DNA from: a virus
Virus record (IMG/VR): IMGVR_UViG_3300035670_000929
Location: 1-30,829 of that record
Length of the DNA: 30,829 nt
Strand: one strand, 5' to 3'
A model generated the notes under the pieces. The model ran no database searches. It had not been told where the DNA came from and was given only the letters and a program-made list of their open reading frames with translations. Both the position numbers and the translations under genes were made by a program. Below, piece by piece: positions 22,430 through 27,180 of the stretch (the stretch's first letter is position 1; the number at the start of each line of letters is the position of its first letter).

Positions 22430-23133
22430 CAGATGTTCCTACCAATGCTCCCCATCATGGGGACAAAACGAACAGAAGCTTTTTCGCGATCTTCGCCTGC
22501 GGCAAGATCCCATTGGGCTTCGTATTCTTGTTTCAGCATAGGGAGTCGATCTGAAGACTCCGGCTTTTTCATAGCAATGTAGTACGCCAGTCCTGCTACT
22601 AAGCAGGGCAAGAATCGGGCCGGAACATCAATGGTGTTGGCACCACCTGATCCCACATCCTGAATTCGGCGCATTCTCCAATACACCAAGGTATAGGTCT
22701 GTGAGTTATCAGGGACCGGCCACACATACACCACCGGGGCTGCACGTTGCCGATCAATATAAACCTGAAGGGGCTGACCCTGAGTTAACTTGTTCGATAA
22801 CTGGGCATAGTCAGATACGGAAATACGGGACAACGTATAGTCAGTCTGACCAGATGTGCTACCGGCATCGGTCCTGAGTTGATGCTCCAAAAGATCAATC
22901 GTGTCGGCTGGCATGGTGTAGGTGAAAGTTCCCGGTGTTAAGACCTGAGAACCCTGTTCCACAGTCCAAAGGTTGATACCTCTGTTCTGCCATTCCTGAG
23001 CCATAAAGTTCATGGAACGACGGGCCGTTCTGAGATCGTAACCGGATCTCAGTTCTAAACCCGCTCTCTCAAAAGCTTCTTCTACAAGCTCTGAGAACTC
23101 TGGGTTAAAGACCGCTGTTCCACTGGTAGCCAT
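22429..23133 (-). CDS. Head-tail adaptor (P22 gp4-like)
   Basis: A protein of 234 residues. EFSELVEEAFERAGLELRSG, YDLRTARRSMNFMAQEWQNR and GINLWTVEQGS are typical of the podoviral portal-adaptor family (P22 gp4-like). Then a strand FTYTMPADTIDLLE, VYVWPVPDN and MRRIQDVG, and C-terminal helices (ARFLPCLVAGLAYYIAM, LPMLKQEYEAQWDLA). It should form the first ring below the portal. TAATG overlap with the previous gene, TGATG with the next. Confidence 0.85.
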   Translation of the reverse strand: MATSGTAVFNPEFSELVEEAFERAGLELRSGYDLRTARRSMNFMAQEWQNRGINLWTVEQGSQVLTPGTFTYTMPADTIDLLEHQLRTDAGSTSGQTDYTLSRISVSDYAQLSNKLTQGQPLQVYIDRQRAAPVVYVWPVPDNSQTYTLVYWRMRRIQDVGSGGANTIDVPARFLPCLVAGLAYYIAMKKPESSDRLPMLKQEYEAQWDLAAGEDREKASVRFVPMMGSIGRNI

Positions 23134-23426
23134 TAGCGATAAGTGCCTTTGGTTTTGCCGCGCATCGCACAGCCATCAATGCGACCGCCTTTGCGATACT
23201 CCATCGGTTCCATTTCTGGACCGGCAGAAATTTCGATCTCTACCACTCCACCACCGGCTTTTTTACGGGCCTCGGATAAGGCAATGGCCATGGCCTGTTT
23301 ACGGTCCTTCACAACAGGCCCATTCTTCCCTGAATGCAGGGTGCCTTCCTTAAATTCCCGCATGACCTTCCTGACCTTGCCGGGTTTCTCAATCTGCTGA
23401 GACATGTTAGCGCGTGACATTGCCAT
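23133..23426 (-). CDS. Small basic DUF6496-like phage protein
   Basis: A protein of 97 residues. The motif KVMREFKEGTLHSGKNGPVV followed by RKQAMAIALSEARKKAG is the hallmark of the DUF6496 type. The C-terminus KGGRIDGCAMRGKTKGTYR is a tail I recognise from several phage virion proteins. Strongly basic. AAGGGG lies upstream of ATG 23424-23426. Probably a minor virion or DNA-associated protein; unknown function. Confidence 0.78.
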   Translation of the reverse strand: MAMSRANMSQQIEKPGKVRKVMREFKEGTLHSGKNGPVVKDRKQAMAIALSEARKKAGGGVVEIEISAGPEMEPMEYRKGGRIDGCAMRGKTKGTYR

Positions 23427-23437
23427 TCTTTTTCCCC

Positions 23438-23692
23438 TTAGCCTTTGCCCTTTTGGCGGAAGCGGCGCGTTTTAGCAGCAATGCCTTTGGGCTGCTGTAC
23501 GAACTGCTTTCCTTCTTTTTTGCCTTTACGCTTGGCGGCGGTGGTTCGGGCATACTCGGAGGGGGAAAGAGCTTTGATAGCAGCTTCCGGTAAATATCTT
23601 TCACCTGTTTTACTAGATGGTTTGCCAGATTTTGTACGCCAACGCTGGTCTCCCCAAGCTTTAAGCGATTGTTGACTTTTTCGTAGCGCCAT
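23438..23692 (-). CDS. Small basic DUF5872-like protein
   Basis: An 84-residue protein from ATG 23690-23692 with AGGTGG 8 nt upstream; an in-frame GTG 12 nt earlier is possible. Motifs: RWRTKSGKPSSKTGERYLPE, KALSPSEYARTTAAKRKG and GKQFVQQPKGIAAKTRRFR, the core of the DUF5872 type. Very rich in Lys and Arg, so DNA binding is likely. Its Shine-Dalgarno (23701-23706, opposite strand) directly abuts the ATG of the inverted HNH gene. Confidence 0.8.
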   Translation of the reverse strand: MALRKSQQSLKAWGDQRWRTKSGKPSSKTGERYLPEAAIKALSPSEYARTTAAKRKGKKEGKQFVQQPKGIAAKTRRFRQKGKG

Positions 23693-23706
23693 ACCATAAT
23701 CCACCT

Positions 23707-24231
23707 ATGGAAAACAAAACTCAGGAAATTTGGAAGTTAATCCCTGACACAGACGAGAGATACTCGGTAAGCAATTATGGCGCAATACGTTCGAATTGGT
23801 CCGATATTCCGCAACGAAATTTAACTTACCGTAAACGAATTGAAAAAACTTCGTTATTAACTGCTTGGCTACACACAACCGGATATATGCGAATTGCTTT
23901 AGGTCGGAATAACCAGAAGTATGTTCACCGGCTAGTGGCGCAAGCGTTCTTGCCAAATCCTGACAACTTACCGCAAGTTGACCATATAGACGGGAACCGT
24001 ACAAATAATCACGTTTCAAATTTACGTTGGGTAACAGCAAATCAAAATTTAAAATATGGCGGTGAACGGCATAACTGGGAATCACAACGAATAGCGAGCG
24101 CAAAAAGACGAATTTATGACGCACAGAAAGCGGAGTACCAGACCTTGGTTGAACAAGGGTACAGTTTGAGACACATTGCGAAACTTTTTGGTACATCACA
24201 TTCCGTTATAAGTCGGGTTTTAAAAAACTAG
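23707..24231 (+). CDS. NUMOD4-HNH homing endonuclease (antisense insertion)
   Basis: A protein of 174 residues, the only plus-strand gene. An N-terminal NUMOD4 motif (EIWKLIPDTDERYSVSNYG, about 7-25) is followed by an HNH domain: VHRLVAQAFLPNPDNLPQVD with H74, D92-H93, then N97 and N101 and NLRWVTANQN. A C-terminal helix-turn-helix (GYSLRHIAKLFGTSHSVISR, 151-170) gives DNA recognition. All catalytic residues appear present. The sequence is A/T-rich compared with the flanks. It fills the gap between two small virion genes exactly, shares a CTAG double stop with the neighbour, and has no clear ribosome site or promoter on its own strand. Confidence 0.92.
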   Translation: MENKTQEIWKLIPDTDERYSVSNYGAIRSNWSDIPQRNLTYRKRIEKTSLLTAWLHTTGYMRIALGRNNQKYVHRLVAQAFLPNPDNLPQVDHIDGNRTNNHVSNLRWVTANQNLKYGGERHNWESQRIASAKRRIYDAQKAEYQTLVEQGYSLRHIAKLFGTSHSVISRVLKN

Positions 24232-24419
24232 TCTCTGTATCCACCGCCTGCAGCCTTATATTTTTTGGCAAGTAACTGACTCTTCCTCGCGGACCATTGA
24301 CCTGCTTTGGTTCCTTGAACCGCAGATCCTTTGATCTGGTTAAACAGGCGCTTACGCATTTCAGGCTTGGTGTAGTTACCTGCCGCATTCACCGTGCTTT
24401 TTGTTTTGGACTTACCCAT
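24228..24419 (-). CDS. Small conserved basic phage protein (63 aa)
   Basis: A 63-residue protein from ATG 24417-24419 (TAATG overlap) to TAG 24228-24230. KTKSTVNAAGNYTKPEMRKR then QWSARKSQLLAKKYKAAGGG is a signature repeatedly found in marine and freshwater phages. Highly basic. Its stop overlaps the HNH stop on the other strand. Function unknown; grouped with the DUF6321/DUF5872/DUF6496-like genes. Confidence 0.8.
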   Translation of the reverse strand: MGKSKTKSTVNAAGNYTKPEMRKRLFNQIKGSAVQGTKAGQWSARKSQLLAKKYKAAGGGYRD

Positions 24420-24703
24420 TACCACTTCACCTTATCTGCCCAGTACGCCGCAGACATCTTTCCTTTGGAAATGTTTTTGGCGTGACGGGCTTTAAACGAT
24501 TCGCGACGATTGCGGTAAGACTCAGATTCCCCGGATTTCTTCGGGGAACCTGATACACCTTGCTGACCAAAGCGAATAGTCTTGACCTGATCGCCAGACT
24601 TGGCGACCACCACATGGGACTTGGTCGGATGACTCGGAGTTCTCTTGGGTTTGTTAAAACCAGATACCCCAGCCCTTTTCAGCCTTGGGTCTCTCTCTGG
24701 CAT
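24419..24703 (-). CDS. Small basic DUF6321-like protein (94 aa)
   Basis: A protein of 94 residues: MPERDPRLKRAGVSGFNKPK, TKSHVVVAKSGDQVKTIRFG, and FKARHAKNISKGKMSAAYWA. These are the DUF6321-type features (KTIRFGxQG, KARHxKNIxKGKMSxAYWA). Strongly basic. It starts 3 nt after the upstream virion gene and ends in a TAATG overlap. Probably virion- or DNA-associated, function unknown. Confidence 0.8.
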   Translation of the reverse strand: MPERDPRLKRAGVSGFNKPKRTPSHPTKSHVVVAKSGDQVKTIRFGQQGVSGSPKKSGESESYRNRRESFKARHAKNISKGKMSAAYWADKVKW

Positions 24704-24706
24704 AAC

Positions 24707-25309
24707 TTACCCGCAAAGCACCGTTACATCTGACACCTGACTCAAAGACATCACAGCGTAGTCGTTTTGACTACCCTTGGTTGTCAACACTCCCTCAGGG
24801 GGAATGATGAGATCATGAGCGCCAGTCGCGTTAGCAGGAGTGTTTAGCTTCAGGATTACCCGATTTGAGGGTTGAGCCGTAAAGGTAATCGTTCCTGCTG
24901 TTGCCACCGACAAATAGGACAGTCCTTTGATACGGGTACGGGGGAATGCAAGATCCCCACCATAACCAATCTTGACGCCACCATTTGAGGCTGCGCTAAC
25001 TGAGATGCTGTTGATTCGGGTGTAGTAGTTGGTGGAATACACCACCGTGGCGGAGGGGCCATTGACCACCTCGGTCACCACGCCGTCGTATCCCACCGCT
25101 CCAACCTTCACTCCAGTAATCGTAAAGAGCGTTCCACTCTCTGCGCCATCGGACGTAATCGAAACCTTGTAACCGGTTCCGTTATATCCCATGTCATTAT
25201 TTAAAAGCGATATGGAACCGCTTCCGGAAATGCTGGCAGAAGAACGAAAATAAGCATCGTTACTGTCTGGAGTAACCGCCCAAATATCATATTGAATAGT
25301 GTTAGCCAT
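24707..25309 (-). CDS. Hypothetical beta-rich virion protein (200 aa)
   Basis: A protein of 200 residues, no family recognised with certainty. It opens MANTIQYDIWAVTPDSNDAY and is rich in short strands (GYKVSITSDG, TVVYSTNYYTRINSISVSAA, TITFTAQPSNRVILKLN), with a helix-poor composition typical of capsid decoration, tail or fibre-associated proteins. GGAGAG precedes the start. It lies between the capsid block and the basic small genes. Confidence 0.7.
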   Translation of the reverse strand: MANTIQYDIWAVTPDSNDAYFRSSASISGSGSISLLNNDMGYNGTGYKVSITSDGAESGTLFTITGVKVGAVGYDGVVTEVVNGPSATVVYSTNYYTRINSISVSAASNGGVKIGYGGDLAFPRTRIKGLSYLSVATAGTITFTAQPSNRVILKLNTPANATGAHDLIIPPEGVLTTKGSQNDYAVMSLSQVSDVTVLCG

Positions 25310-25339
25310 GCGTTCTCTCCAATAGGGGAAACCCCGTTA

Positions 25340-25591
25340 TCAGACAGTGACGCTCTGGTACAGGGCAATGTAAGCGGTCGTGGAACCTACCAAAACAGGG
25401 ATGTAACCCAACTGAGCCGACACCGCACCCGAGGCAGCATTGGCATTGCTGAATGCCACGTTACCTAGCGTTGCGGAAACTGCCGTCAATACCGTGGCAG
25501 ACAAGGCGCTGGTCGAAACCGTACCAGAAACCAAATTGCCTTCAAAACCGTTGTCGGACTTAACCGGGCCGGAAAAACGAGTCTGAGCCAT
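25340..25591 (-). CDS. Small conserved virion protein (83 aa)
   Basis: A protein of 83 residues starting MAQTRFSGPVKSDNGFEG, a start common to small structural proteins downstream of phage capsid genes. The rest is Ala/Ser/Thr/Val-rich beta sequence (ATLGNVAFSNANAASGAVSA). Its ATG overlaps the stop of the GIY-YIG gene (TAATG). Before the GIY-YIG insertion it would have followed the capsid gene directly. Possible head decoration; unproven. Confidence 0.72.
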   Translation of the reverse strand: MAQTRFSGPVKSDNGFEGNLVSGTVSTSALSATVLTAVSATLGNVAFSNANAASGAVSAQLGYIPVLVGSTTAYIALYQSVTV

Positions 25592-26193
25592 TACAAATCT
25601 CCTTTAAGATGCTGATACTTCAACGCTAATCTACGCACTGAACTCGTATCAGACCCAAGCCTTCTTGCGCGTTCAGCATACGTTAATTGAGGATTCTCTA
25701 CAATAAATTTGATCTTTGCCATTAGTTTCGGGTCCGAGTAAATACGAGCCATATGTGCGCGAGAAAGAGTGGCCCTGTATTCCGGACTTCTGTAGTCAAA
25801 CGTACTAGCCCTTCTTCCTAACCTAATGCGCTCACGAACCTCTTCAGAATGCTCTTTCCCCCTCATTGGGGCTTTAGCAAAATCAGCAATGTTGTACACA
25901 GTAGGCTCATCAAACCAAGCCTTTTTCTGAAGGAACATAGTCTCTAACTTATCAAGCTCTTCCAGATCATTACATTCGATCTCTATCGCTCCGTAAAACG
26001 CTTCTGCACCATACCTGTTGTAAGAGTTTTGCAAATGAGGATTCGTGTGCTTGTTCCATCTGAGCAAGCGAAAATGCTCTTTTAAACGCTTCTTAACACG
26101 TTGAGACTGACCAACATAGCATTGACCTGTCACCTTATTGACGATCTTGTATATGCCGCAAATGTCAATCTTGTATGGCATAAACAACACCAT
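25591..26193 (-). CDS. GIY-YIG homing endonuclease with NUMOD3-like region
   Basis: A 200-residue protein from ATG 26191-26193, with AAGG upstream. A longer in-frame TTG at 26253 would put the start in the terminator and is rejected. GIY (13-15) and YVG (26-28) are intact, as are R32/R36, H40 and the catalytic E84 (LDKLETMF). A NUMOD3-type motif (MRGKEHSEEVRERIRLGRR) and a C-terminal helix-turn-helix (LTYAERARRLGSDTSSVRRL) follow. The gene lies just after the capsid terminator and overlaps the next gene; a free-standing intron-type endonuclease is the best reading. Confidence 0.9.
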   Translation of the reverse strand: MVLFMPYKIDICGIYKIVNKVTGQCYVGQSQRVKKRLKEHFRLLRWNKHTNPHLQNSYNRYGAEAFYGAIEIECNDLEELDKLETMFLQKKAWFDEPTVYNIADFAKAPMRGKEHSEEVRERIRLGRRASTFDYRSPEYRATLSRAHMARIYSDPKLMAKIKFIVENPQLTYAERARRLGSDTSSVRRLALKYQHLKGDL

Positions 26194-26215
26194 AAGACCT
26201 TGAATGTGCCATGTC

Positions 26216-26250
26216 AAAACAAAAAGAAAGGGGGCATAAAGCCCCCTCTC
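26216..26250 (-). terminator. Rho-independent terminator after the major capsid gene
   Basis: On the minus strand, GAGAGGGGGC and GCCCCCTTTC pair through 10 bp (one G-U) around the loop TTTAT, followed by TTTTTGTTTTG. The stem is GC-rich and the U tract long, so a strong terminator is expected. It lies 22 nt after the capsid stop and would limit readthrough into the downstream genes. Confidence 0.88.
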
Positions 26251-26251
26251 C

Positions 26252-26269
26252 AATCAACATGTGTTGATT
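26252..26269. repeat. 18-bp inverted repeat between capsid stop and terminator
   Basis: AATCAACA and TGTTGATT flank a 2-bp centre, giving an 18-bp palindrome just downstream of the capsid stop. The centre is too short for a stable simple hairpin, so it may be a protein-binding site, an endonuclease target remnant, or an extension of the terminator structure. Confidence 0.65.
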
Positions 26270-26271
26270 TA

Positions 26272-27180
26272 TCAGGTCGAACCGGGCGAACCCCAGACAC
26301 CAAGCGGATCCGACACGCCGAACGAATATCGCTCGCGAGCCTTGTACCGCACGTTGCCGGTATCGAAGTCCCCGTCCATGCCGGTCGTCATCGGCGTACG
26401 CACGAAGTGCTTCATGCCATTCGGTACGTCCGTGATGATGAAGAAGGCGTTGGTGTCGGTCAGATAATGGTTGACCGCATAGCCTTCCGGAATGGCACCC
26501 ATGTTCCGGATCGCGTTGATGTCGTTATCGGCAGTCGCCGTACGGAGAGTGGTCTCCATGAGGCGCTCGGCAACGAACATCAAGTTGGACGGAACAATGA
26601 GACGCTTCGGGCGAGCCGCAATCAAGAGACCACGCTCGTCTTGGAAGTTGGCAATCGCGATGATCGCATCTTCCAGCGAAGTCTCGTTGAGGTCGGCACC
26701 CACGGTCGGACGGTTGGCATTGGTGCCACCGCTGACCAACGGGTGAGCCGTGCTGAACAGGGTCACGCCGTCGCCAGACTGGAACGTCGTGAAGCCGTTG
26801 TTCAACAAAGCAGCCGCCTTGACCTGCTTGGTGTTCGCCATACCACGGGCGAGAGCCTTGGTGTAACGAGCAGAGAGTTGGTCATAGAGGTTGTCCTCCA
26901 TGGCTTCCTCAGTGATTGAAAAGCCCATGGCAATCGTTTCGTGGTTGTAACGAGCCGTCCAAGCCTCCTGAGCATTGTCATAAGCAATGGCCTGACCTTC
27001 CGGCTTCACCGGGGCCGTGCCAAAGCCCGACAACTTGACTTCCTCTTCGAAAGCCTTCTCAGAGTTCTCGGTCTCATAGATGAGCGTGTGCTCATCCTCA
27101 TACTTGGCATACTCCAAACCGAAGAGCGCATTCAGCCCCGGCAGGAGTTCCTTCAACATTTGTGCGCGTGAAATAGCCAT
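26272..27180 (-). CDS. Major capsid protein (HK97-fold, Mu gpT-like)
   Basis: A protein of 302 residues. The N-terminal helix region (ELLPGLNALFGLEYAKYED), E-loop-like GFGTAPVKPEGQAIAYDNAQ, FSITEEAMEDNLYDQLSARY, and HPLVSGGTNANRP lie in the order of the Mu gpT-like capsid family. Later PKRLIVPSNLMFVAERLME and HFVRTPMTTGMDGDFDTG with KARERYSFGVSDPLG are typical C-terminal strands. Codons are G/C-ending and regular, as expected for the most expressed gene. It follows the scaffold region and ends before a strong terminator. Confidence 0.92.
   Translation of the reverse strand: MAISRAQMLKELLPGLNALFGLEYAKYEDEHTLIYETENSEKAFEEEVKLSGFGTAPVKPEGQAIAYDNAQEAWTARYNHETIAMGFSITEEAMEDNLYDQLSARYTKALARGMANTKQVKAAALLNNGFTTFQSGDGVTLFSTAHPLVSGGTNANRPTVGADLNETSLEDAIIAIANFQDERGLLIAARPKRLIVPSNLMFVAERLMETTLRTATADNDINAIRNMGAIPEGYAVNHYLTDTNAFFIITDVPNGMKHFVRTPMTTGMDGDFDTGNVRYKARERYSFGVSDPLGVWGSPGST

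Follow-up and report, generated by a model that had tools for sequence, protein, structure and literature searches.

A predicted antisense homing endonuclease gene with a promoter pattern in the codons of its proposed target gene and a stop-free reverse frame in a probable phage late operon

The homing endonuclease genes of phage T4 are co-directional with their neighbours, with segD as the sole exception, and a promoter for segD was not identified (PMC2988022). I-HmuI, which belongs to the NUMOD4-HNH family, is encoded by an intron. Translational coupling by gene overlap, in turn, is established (PMC6728339). Here we describe a phage locus where a predicted homing gene stands against the direction of the operon around it.

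The DNA analyzed, called the window below, is a 30.8-kb virus fragment with its genes on the minus strand. Between two small genes, which we named B and C, lies a single plus-strand gene, the HNH gene. The features of the locus are as follows.

23707-24231, plus strand: predicted HNH homing endonuclease gene (NUMOD4, HNH and a C-terminal HTH), ATG start, 174 residues, antisense to the operon.
24228-24425, minus strand: gene B (phrog_17747), 63-65 residues, the upstream operon neighbour of the element.
24228-24231, both strands: palindromic CTAG, the stop of the HNH gene (plus) and of gene B (minus).
23438-23692, minus strand: gene C (phrog_14910, MALRKSQQSLKAWGDQRW...), whose first ~20-28 codons are the version associated with the HNH gene.
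23701-23706, minus strand: Shine-Dalgarno AGGTGG of gene C, abutting the HNH ATG, apparently supplied by the element and missing from the empty allele L318.
23642-24235: approximate tract that is foreign relative to L318; nucleotide homology ends at 23641 in C and restarts at 24236 in B.

An earlier sequence-only reading had described the HNH gene as antisense, with its ATG against the minus-strand Shine-Dalgarno at 23701-23706 and its stop in a CTAG common to the 63-residue gene, and all of this was confirmed. The same reading put a DUF5872 label on the gene served by that ribosome site. That gene is C; the DUF5872 match is weak (E 0.026, below the cut-off) and belongs to B.

The HNH protein contains NUMOD4 (residues 7-65, E 5e-9), HNH_3 (residues 71-115, E 9.4e-13) and HTH_38 (residues 145-173, E 8e-8) according to Pfam. 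Residues D92, H93, N105 and N114 of the HNH domain were invariant in 22 sequences, so the catalytic residues are conserved. The HNH profile matched I-HmuI (PDB 1U3E) with an E value of 4.5e-16, and the AlphaFold model (pLDDT 87.5) retrieved 1U3E in Foldseek (E 1.2e-6). By Pfam as well as by the sequence and fold of 1U3E, the DNA-binding modules of I-HmuI are thus present. The subfamily is under purifying selection, with a median dN/dS of 0.12 (range 0.02-0.26, 40 pairs). The gene is free-standing: both flanking genes are complete ORFs with their own starts and stops, and no Rfam intron match was found in 23000-26500.

Genes B and C were found together in many IMG/VR contigs, and gene C is present in HMO-2011-like isolates, namely Puniceispirillum, Pelagibacter, Roseobacter and Methylophilales phages. 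We consider it likely, as part of the overall explanation set out below, that the invaded operon is a late operon of HMO-2011-like phages. Among 219 distinct B/C junctions, 97 were empty, with the B stop overlapping or touching the C start; 26 carried this HNH gene, 92 carried other inserts whose main reading frames were mostly co-directional with the operon (16 Endo VII-like nucleases included), and 4 were unclassifiable. The B/C junction is a hotspot, where nuclease genes and small genes recur as inserts. In the cultured phages HMO-2011, CRP-1 and MEP401, the start of C lies 4-8 nt within the gene before it; in the cultured phage HTVC104P it follows that gene by 1 nt.

A second scan brought the HNH set up to 39 distinct loci (77 records), and in all 39 the gene stands beside C and antisense. 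The subfamily is discrete, since below 56% identity the next relatives reach at most 46% over most of the length. No close member was found in cultured phages, where the best full-length matches were at ~39%, or in a scan of bacterial genomes (best 38% over most of the length). The closest relative of the window, L318 (adaptor 98% and capsid 99% identical in amino acids), is without the HNH gene and serves as the empty comparator, though it has a second difference from the window close by, in the slot of the 94-residue gene A; its C start lies in TCATGA, inside the B stop. The HNH gene therefore varies in presence at a single site, and its empty allele can be recognized (39 occupied loci, 97 empty junctions, L318). 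A gene found in the same place and between conserved flanks in all relatives would have spoken against the mobile origin proposed earlier; many relatives are without it, and the proposal survives.

Several other observations concern the surroundings. In ~16 distinct loci, L005, L035, L065, L090 and L110 among them, the same B/C junction is occupied by an Endo VII-like HNH nuclease (CxxC...DHNH) that is co-directional with the operon and has a start overlapping the B stop. A co-directional GIY-YIG homing-type gene (25591-26181, minus strand) lies between the small gene at 25340-25591 and the major capsid gene; since it is absent in the near-identical L318, it is a second mobile nuclease gene in the window. 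The slot of gene A (phrog_7595; 24419-24703, minus strand) shows no homology to gene A of L318, with both flanks 87-91% identical in DNA, and by this alignment it is apparently a further exchange point beside the HNH element. An Rfam SraG match at 26139-26251 (plus strand) scored 32 bits, below the gathering score of 50, and is probably due to chance.

The comparison with the empty allele, which the sequence-only reading had suggested, also located the insertion. Gene C of the window is a mosaic: compared with L318, its 5' part is 59% and its 3' part 95% identical, and for the HNH-bearing L335 the values are 86% and 73%, respectively. Over 31 loci, HNH distance tracked that of the C 5' end (rho 0.68) and barely that of the 3' part (rho 0.18). 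The 5' part of C thus travels together with the HNH gene, as in co-conversion of flanking sequence. In five distinct loci (L335, L165, L185, L172 and L415), remnants of 36-42 nt of an ordinary C start lie between the upstream gene and the HNH stop, and they end at or just past codon 12. The remnants of the old start together with the mosaic C show that the element must, as judged from these alignments, have inserted inside gene C at about codon 12. They likewise show that it evidently brought a replacement for C, consisting of a ribosome site, a start codon and ~20-28 codons. The earlier reading of a mobile gene filling an intergenic gap was right as to mobility: relatives lacking the gene are known, and L318 shows the empty site. 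The landing place, however, lies within C. A WGDQ sequence after Trp13 of C was also considered as a resistance signature of HNH-bearing alleles and was dropped, as it occurs in about half of the empty ones too.

These data bear on whether the HNH gene is instead an old, vertically inherited antisense gene that is no longer mobile and was lost by the empty relatives. Its site and orientation are always the same and most of the left junctions share one form (GA|[CT]TA), as such inheritance would predict. However, the 5' and 3' parts of C have different histories, with HNH distance only weakly correlated with the 3' part, remnants of older C starts lie beside HNH genes of divergent lineages, the near-identical L318 is without the gene, and the enzyme is intact and under purifying selection. 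We regard vertical inheritance as decidedly unlikely, and the element as likely a free-standing homing endonuclease, I-HmuI-like and of the NUMOD4-HNH family, with the 5' end of the small gene C as its target.

We then consider how a gene in this position could be expressed. A putative promoter lies antisense within the first codons of C.

23672-23677, plus strand: -35 box TTGACT, opposite C codons 6-7.
23678-23694, plus strand: promoter spacer of 17 bp (TTTTCGTAG...), opposite C codons 1-5, unusually conserved.
23695-23700, plus strand: -10 box CATAAT; the HNH ATG begins 6 nt after it, at the predicted +1, and would be leaderless.

The pattern TTGACW-N16-18-YATAAT, which was composed post hoc around this promoter, has one match on both strands of the 30.8 kb, with 0.03 expected. 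In 36 of the 39 distinct HNH-bearing loci, the best sigma70-like match is at the identical position with a 17-nt spacer. We divided the loci by the identity of their HNH to that of the window, above (type 1) or below (type 2) ~64%; the -35 box is TTGACT in nearly all type-1 loci and mostly TTGTTC or TTGCTC in type 2. Because the promoter overlies C codons, its constraint can be measured. Synonymous-entropy ratios for C codons 3-7 of HNH-bearing loci were 0.28, 0, 0, 0 and 0.30, compared with ~0.9 in the rest of C and in alleles without the HNH gene; in empty alleles only the second codon, which overlaps B, is similarly constrained. Codon 3 is CTA or TTA in 39/39, codon 4 is CGA and codon 5 is AAA in 37/37 each, codon 6 is AGT in 18/18 where it encodes Ser, and codon 7 is CAA in 37/39. 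The [CT]TACGAAAA motif is present in 0/97 empty and 0/92 other-insert alleles. A-rich early codons are sometimes also favoured for translation initiation. The counts show a predicted sigma70-type promoter pattern conserved antisense within the replaced C codons, and from this conservation we infer that the HNH gene is driven by a promoter of its own. The sequence-only reading had found neither a ribosome site nor a promoter and left expression open. A Shine-Dalgarno for the HNH gene is indeed absent, whereas the promoter pattern TTGACT-N17-CATAAT is present at 23672-23700, and this promoter with a predicted leaderless start is now a strong candidate answer.

Within the spacer, the part TTTTCGTAG that adjoins the -35 box (23678-23686) is conserved beyond what a promoter needs. 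By analogy with the known autorepression by I-TevI (PMC2988022), we speculate that the spacer might be an operator bound by the HNH protein itself.

Outside the clade of the window, GGAG precedes the HNH ATG by 6-8 nt in 33/33 loci. In the clade of the window, made up of the window and five other distinct loci, AAAGGAG is replaced by TATGGA, and TATGGA with an ATG at the predicted +1, 6 nt past the -10 box, is found in 6/6. The old HNH ATG is gone in most of this clade, and L161 has both. We predict that in this clade the former Shine-Dalgarno became an ATG and that the HNH message is leaderless. The loss of the Shine-Dalgarno, and in most members of the old ATG, would also fit a decaying element, poorly translated for want of a ribosome site and with an upstream ATG that is incidental. 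Yet in all six distinct members the new ATG coincides exactly with the predicted +1, both ATGs persist in L161, and the HNH genes of the clade have dN/dS values of 0.13-0.19 with no frameshifts or stops, which makes decay unlikely. Apparent in-frame stops in L186 and L113 had suggested pseudogenes, but their position is in the leader, ahead of the true ATG, so this reading was rejected and the decay argument built on it was dropped.

The predicted start also bears on antisense RNA, which had been raised earlier as a possible effect on the small virion genes. The HNH gene is convergent to B and no terminator-like site was found after it, so read-through into B and A is possible. However, the predicted transcript begins at 23707 and leaves the C ribosome site uncovered; only B and A could be reached, by read-through. 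Antisense RNA as the main effect is thus unsupported. As selection acts on the HNH protein and no Rfam family was found at the locus, we consider it extremely improbable that the locus is mainly an antisense RNA regulating these genes; the expression of an enzyme from its own promoter remains our preferred reading.

We also analyzed the strand opposite the HNH gene and found one further feature.

23705-24199, minus strand: operon-sense open frame of 164 aa, with GTG at 24199 or ATG at 24196, on the back of the HNH gene; a proposed translational bridge.

In the window, an SD-like GGAA precedes the GTG/ATG at 24199/24196, and the frame ends at the TAG at 23707-23705, overlapping both the C Shine-Dalgarno and the HNH ATG. 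One reverse frame had no stops past nine codons in 38/38 loci. It is open end to end in 19/19 type-2 loci, and the 19 type-1 loci have only one or two stops, all within the first nine codons from B. Stops in this frame (frame 3) averaged 0.63, against 4.48 under synonymous codon shuffling within each gene, and in the other two reverse frames stop counts matched the shuffling expectation. Past codon 10, a cut chosen post hoc after the stops of the 19 type-1 loci had been seen to fall there, the 13 loci that diverge from each other by 30% or more had 0 stops against an expectation of 49.6 (Fisher p 2e-16); as the loci are metagenomic and related by descent, combined p-values such as this overstate independence and are optimistic. 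HNH-synonymous transversions that create a stop numbered 0/281, against 8.3% expected. The reverse frame of 76 other HNH genes had no stop deficit (11.4 stops, 11.9 expected).

Both ends of the frame carry signals. In 18/19 type-2 loci it starts at a GTG or ATG overlapping the stop of the preceding gene, and in 32/32 loci of usual spacing it ends with TGA, TAG or TAA exactly one base before the C ATG. This stop at -4 of C shares part of its sequence with the -10 box, which leaves its conservation partly entangled with that of the promoter. In the clade of the window, however, the spacing is 1 nt shorter, which puts the triplet before the C ATG out of frame, and it is a non-stop in 6/6; this argues against the promoter as the whole cause. 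In type-1 loci, including the window, the frame starts ~30 nt downstream of the B stop and not inside B, which weakens direct B-to-C coupling there. We rejected the possibility that the reverse frame runs on in frame into C, since in loci with a spacing of 15 nt the two are read in different frames.

Could the reverse frame be a true protein-coding gene of an antisense overlapping pair, whose product matters? It is 162-183 aa long in 38/38 loci, with complete start and stop signals that fit the operon. By the test for such pairs, the second frame is uninterrupted and has these signals (in type 1 only past the first nine codons), whereas purifying selection on it at the amino-acid level was not found. 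In comparisons where the HNH proteins are 64-74% identical, the amino-acid identity of this frame is down to 29-30%. Changes that are synonymous for the HNH affect its residues no differently from random changes, with BLOSUM scores at expectation (-0.78 vs -0.83 in one case, -1.58 vs -1.51 in the other). Codon identity at conserved HNH residues is barely over the usage expectation (0.41 vs 0.36). We therefore hold a functional product to be very unlikely. The simplest reading is that ribosomes must pass and that the peptide itself is not what matters. We lean, with some reserve, towards the view that the non-coding strand of the homing gene evolved into a translational bridge: selection would remove only stops and in only one frame, so that the antisense insertion keeps the operon coupled, and the same few bases would serve as promoter, start codon, bridge stop and C ribosome site. 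In the literature searched, in which few subscription journals were covered, we found no previous account of a homing gene whose reverse strand keeps a frame free of stops.

We propose the following model. The HNH enzyme would nick or cut C near codons 12-13 in phages without the element, and repair would copy the element along with the donor C 5' end, so that C is kept intact and the target destroyed. Transcription of the HNH gene would start at its own promoter and would probably rely on the host RNA polymerase at an early stage of infection, and in the clade of the window its message would be leaderless, beginning with the ATG at the predicted +1. Ribosomes leaving B would translate on through the element and re-initiate at C; the reverse-frame bridge would in this way restore the B-to-C coupling seen in empty alleles and/or prevent polarity on the downstream structural genes. 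We consider the model as a whole, combining a homing endonuclease, a replaced C 5' end, an own promoter and a reverse-frame bridge, to be likely on the comparative evidence. It would show one way for a mobile gene opposing an essential operon to be tolerated, through a new 5' end, a promoter in codons and a translatable reverse strand. Selection against stops in the absence of amino-acid selection is an unusual and testable signature, and phage operons could be screened with it for further antisense insertions. The clade of the window further provides a worked example of a Shine-Dalgarno turned into a leaderless start codon.

Compared with the known systems, the HNH gene shares domain order, fold and the conserved HNH catalytic motif with I-HmuI (PDB 1U3E) and the NUMOD4-HNH family (phrog_59); it differs in being free-standing, and antisense to its target operon, instead of intron-encoded. 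Like the free-standing seg and mob genes of T4 (PMC2988022), it is intergenic, at one site, and present or absent in relatives. The operon-sense strand of T4 segD has 9, 12 and 26 stops in its three frames, whereas the element here has a conserved promoter pattern of its own and a stop-free reverse frame. In ShiLan, the DNA of an HNH element is likewise open in the frame of the host gene and leaderless initiation has been suggested; there the HNH occupies a different frame of the methylase insertion and the host protein becomes longer, whereas here the HNH gene runs on the other strand, the length of the host gene is kept, and the open frame apparently links two genes. Mitochondrial introns also supply the gene they invade with a foreign 5' end and leave its old 5' end behind as a remnant, as this free-standing phage gene appears to do, here with a putative promoter embedded in the replaced codons. 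Finally, the stop/start overlaps of B and C in empty alleles and those at both ends of the bridge frame resemble the sites of termination-reinitiation coupling (PMC6728339). There the coupling is between ordinary genes; here the non-coding strand of a mobile element would be the link.
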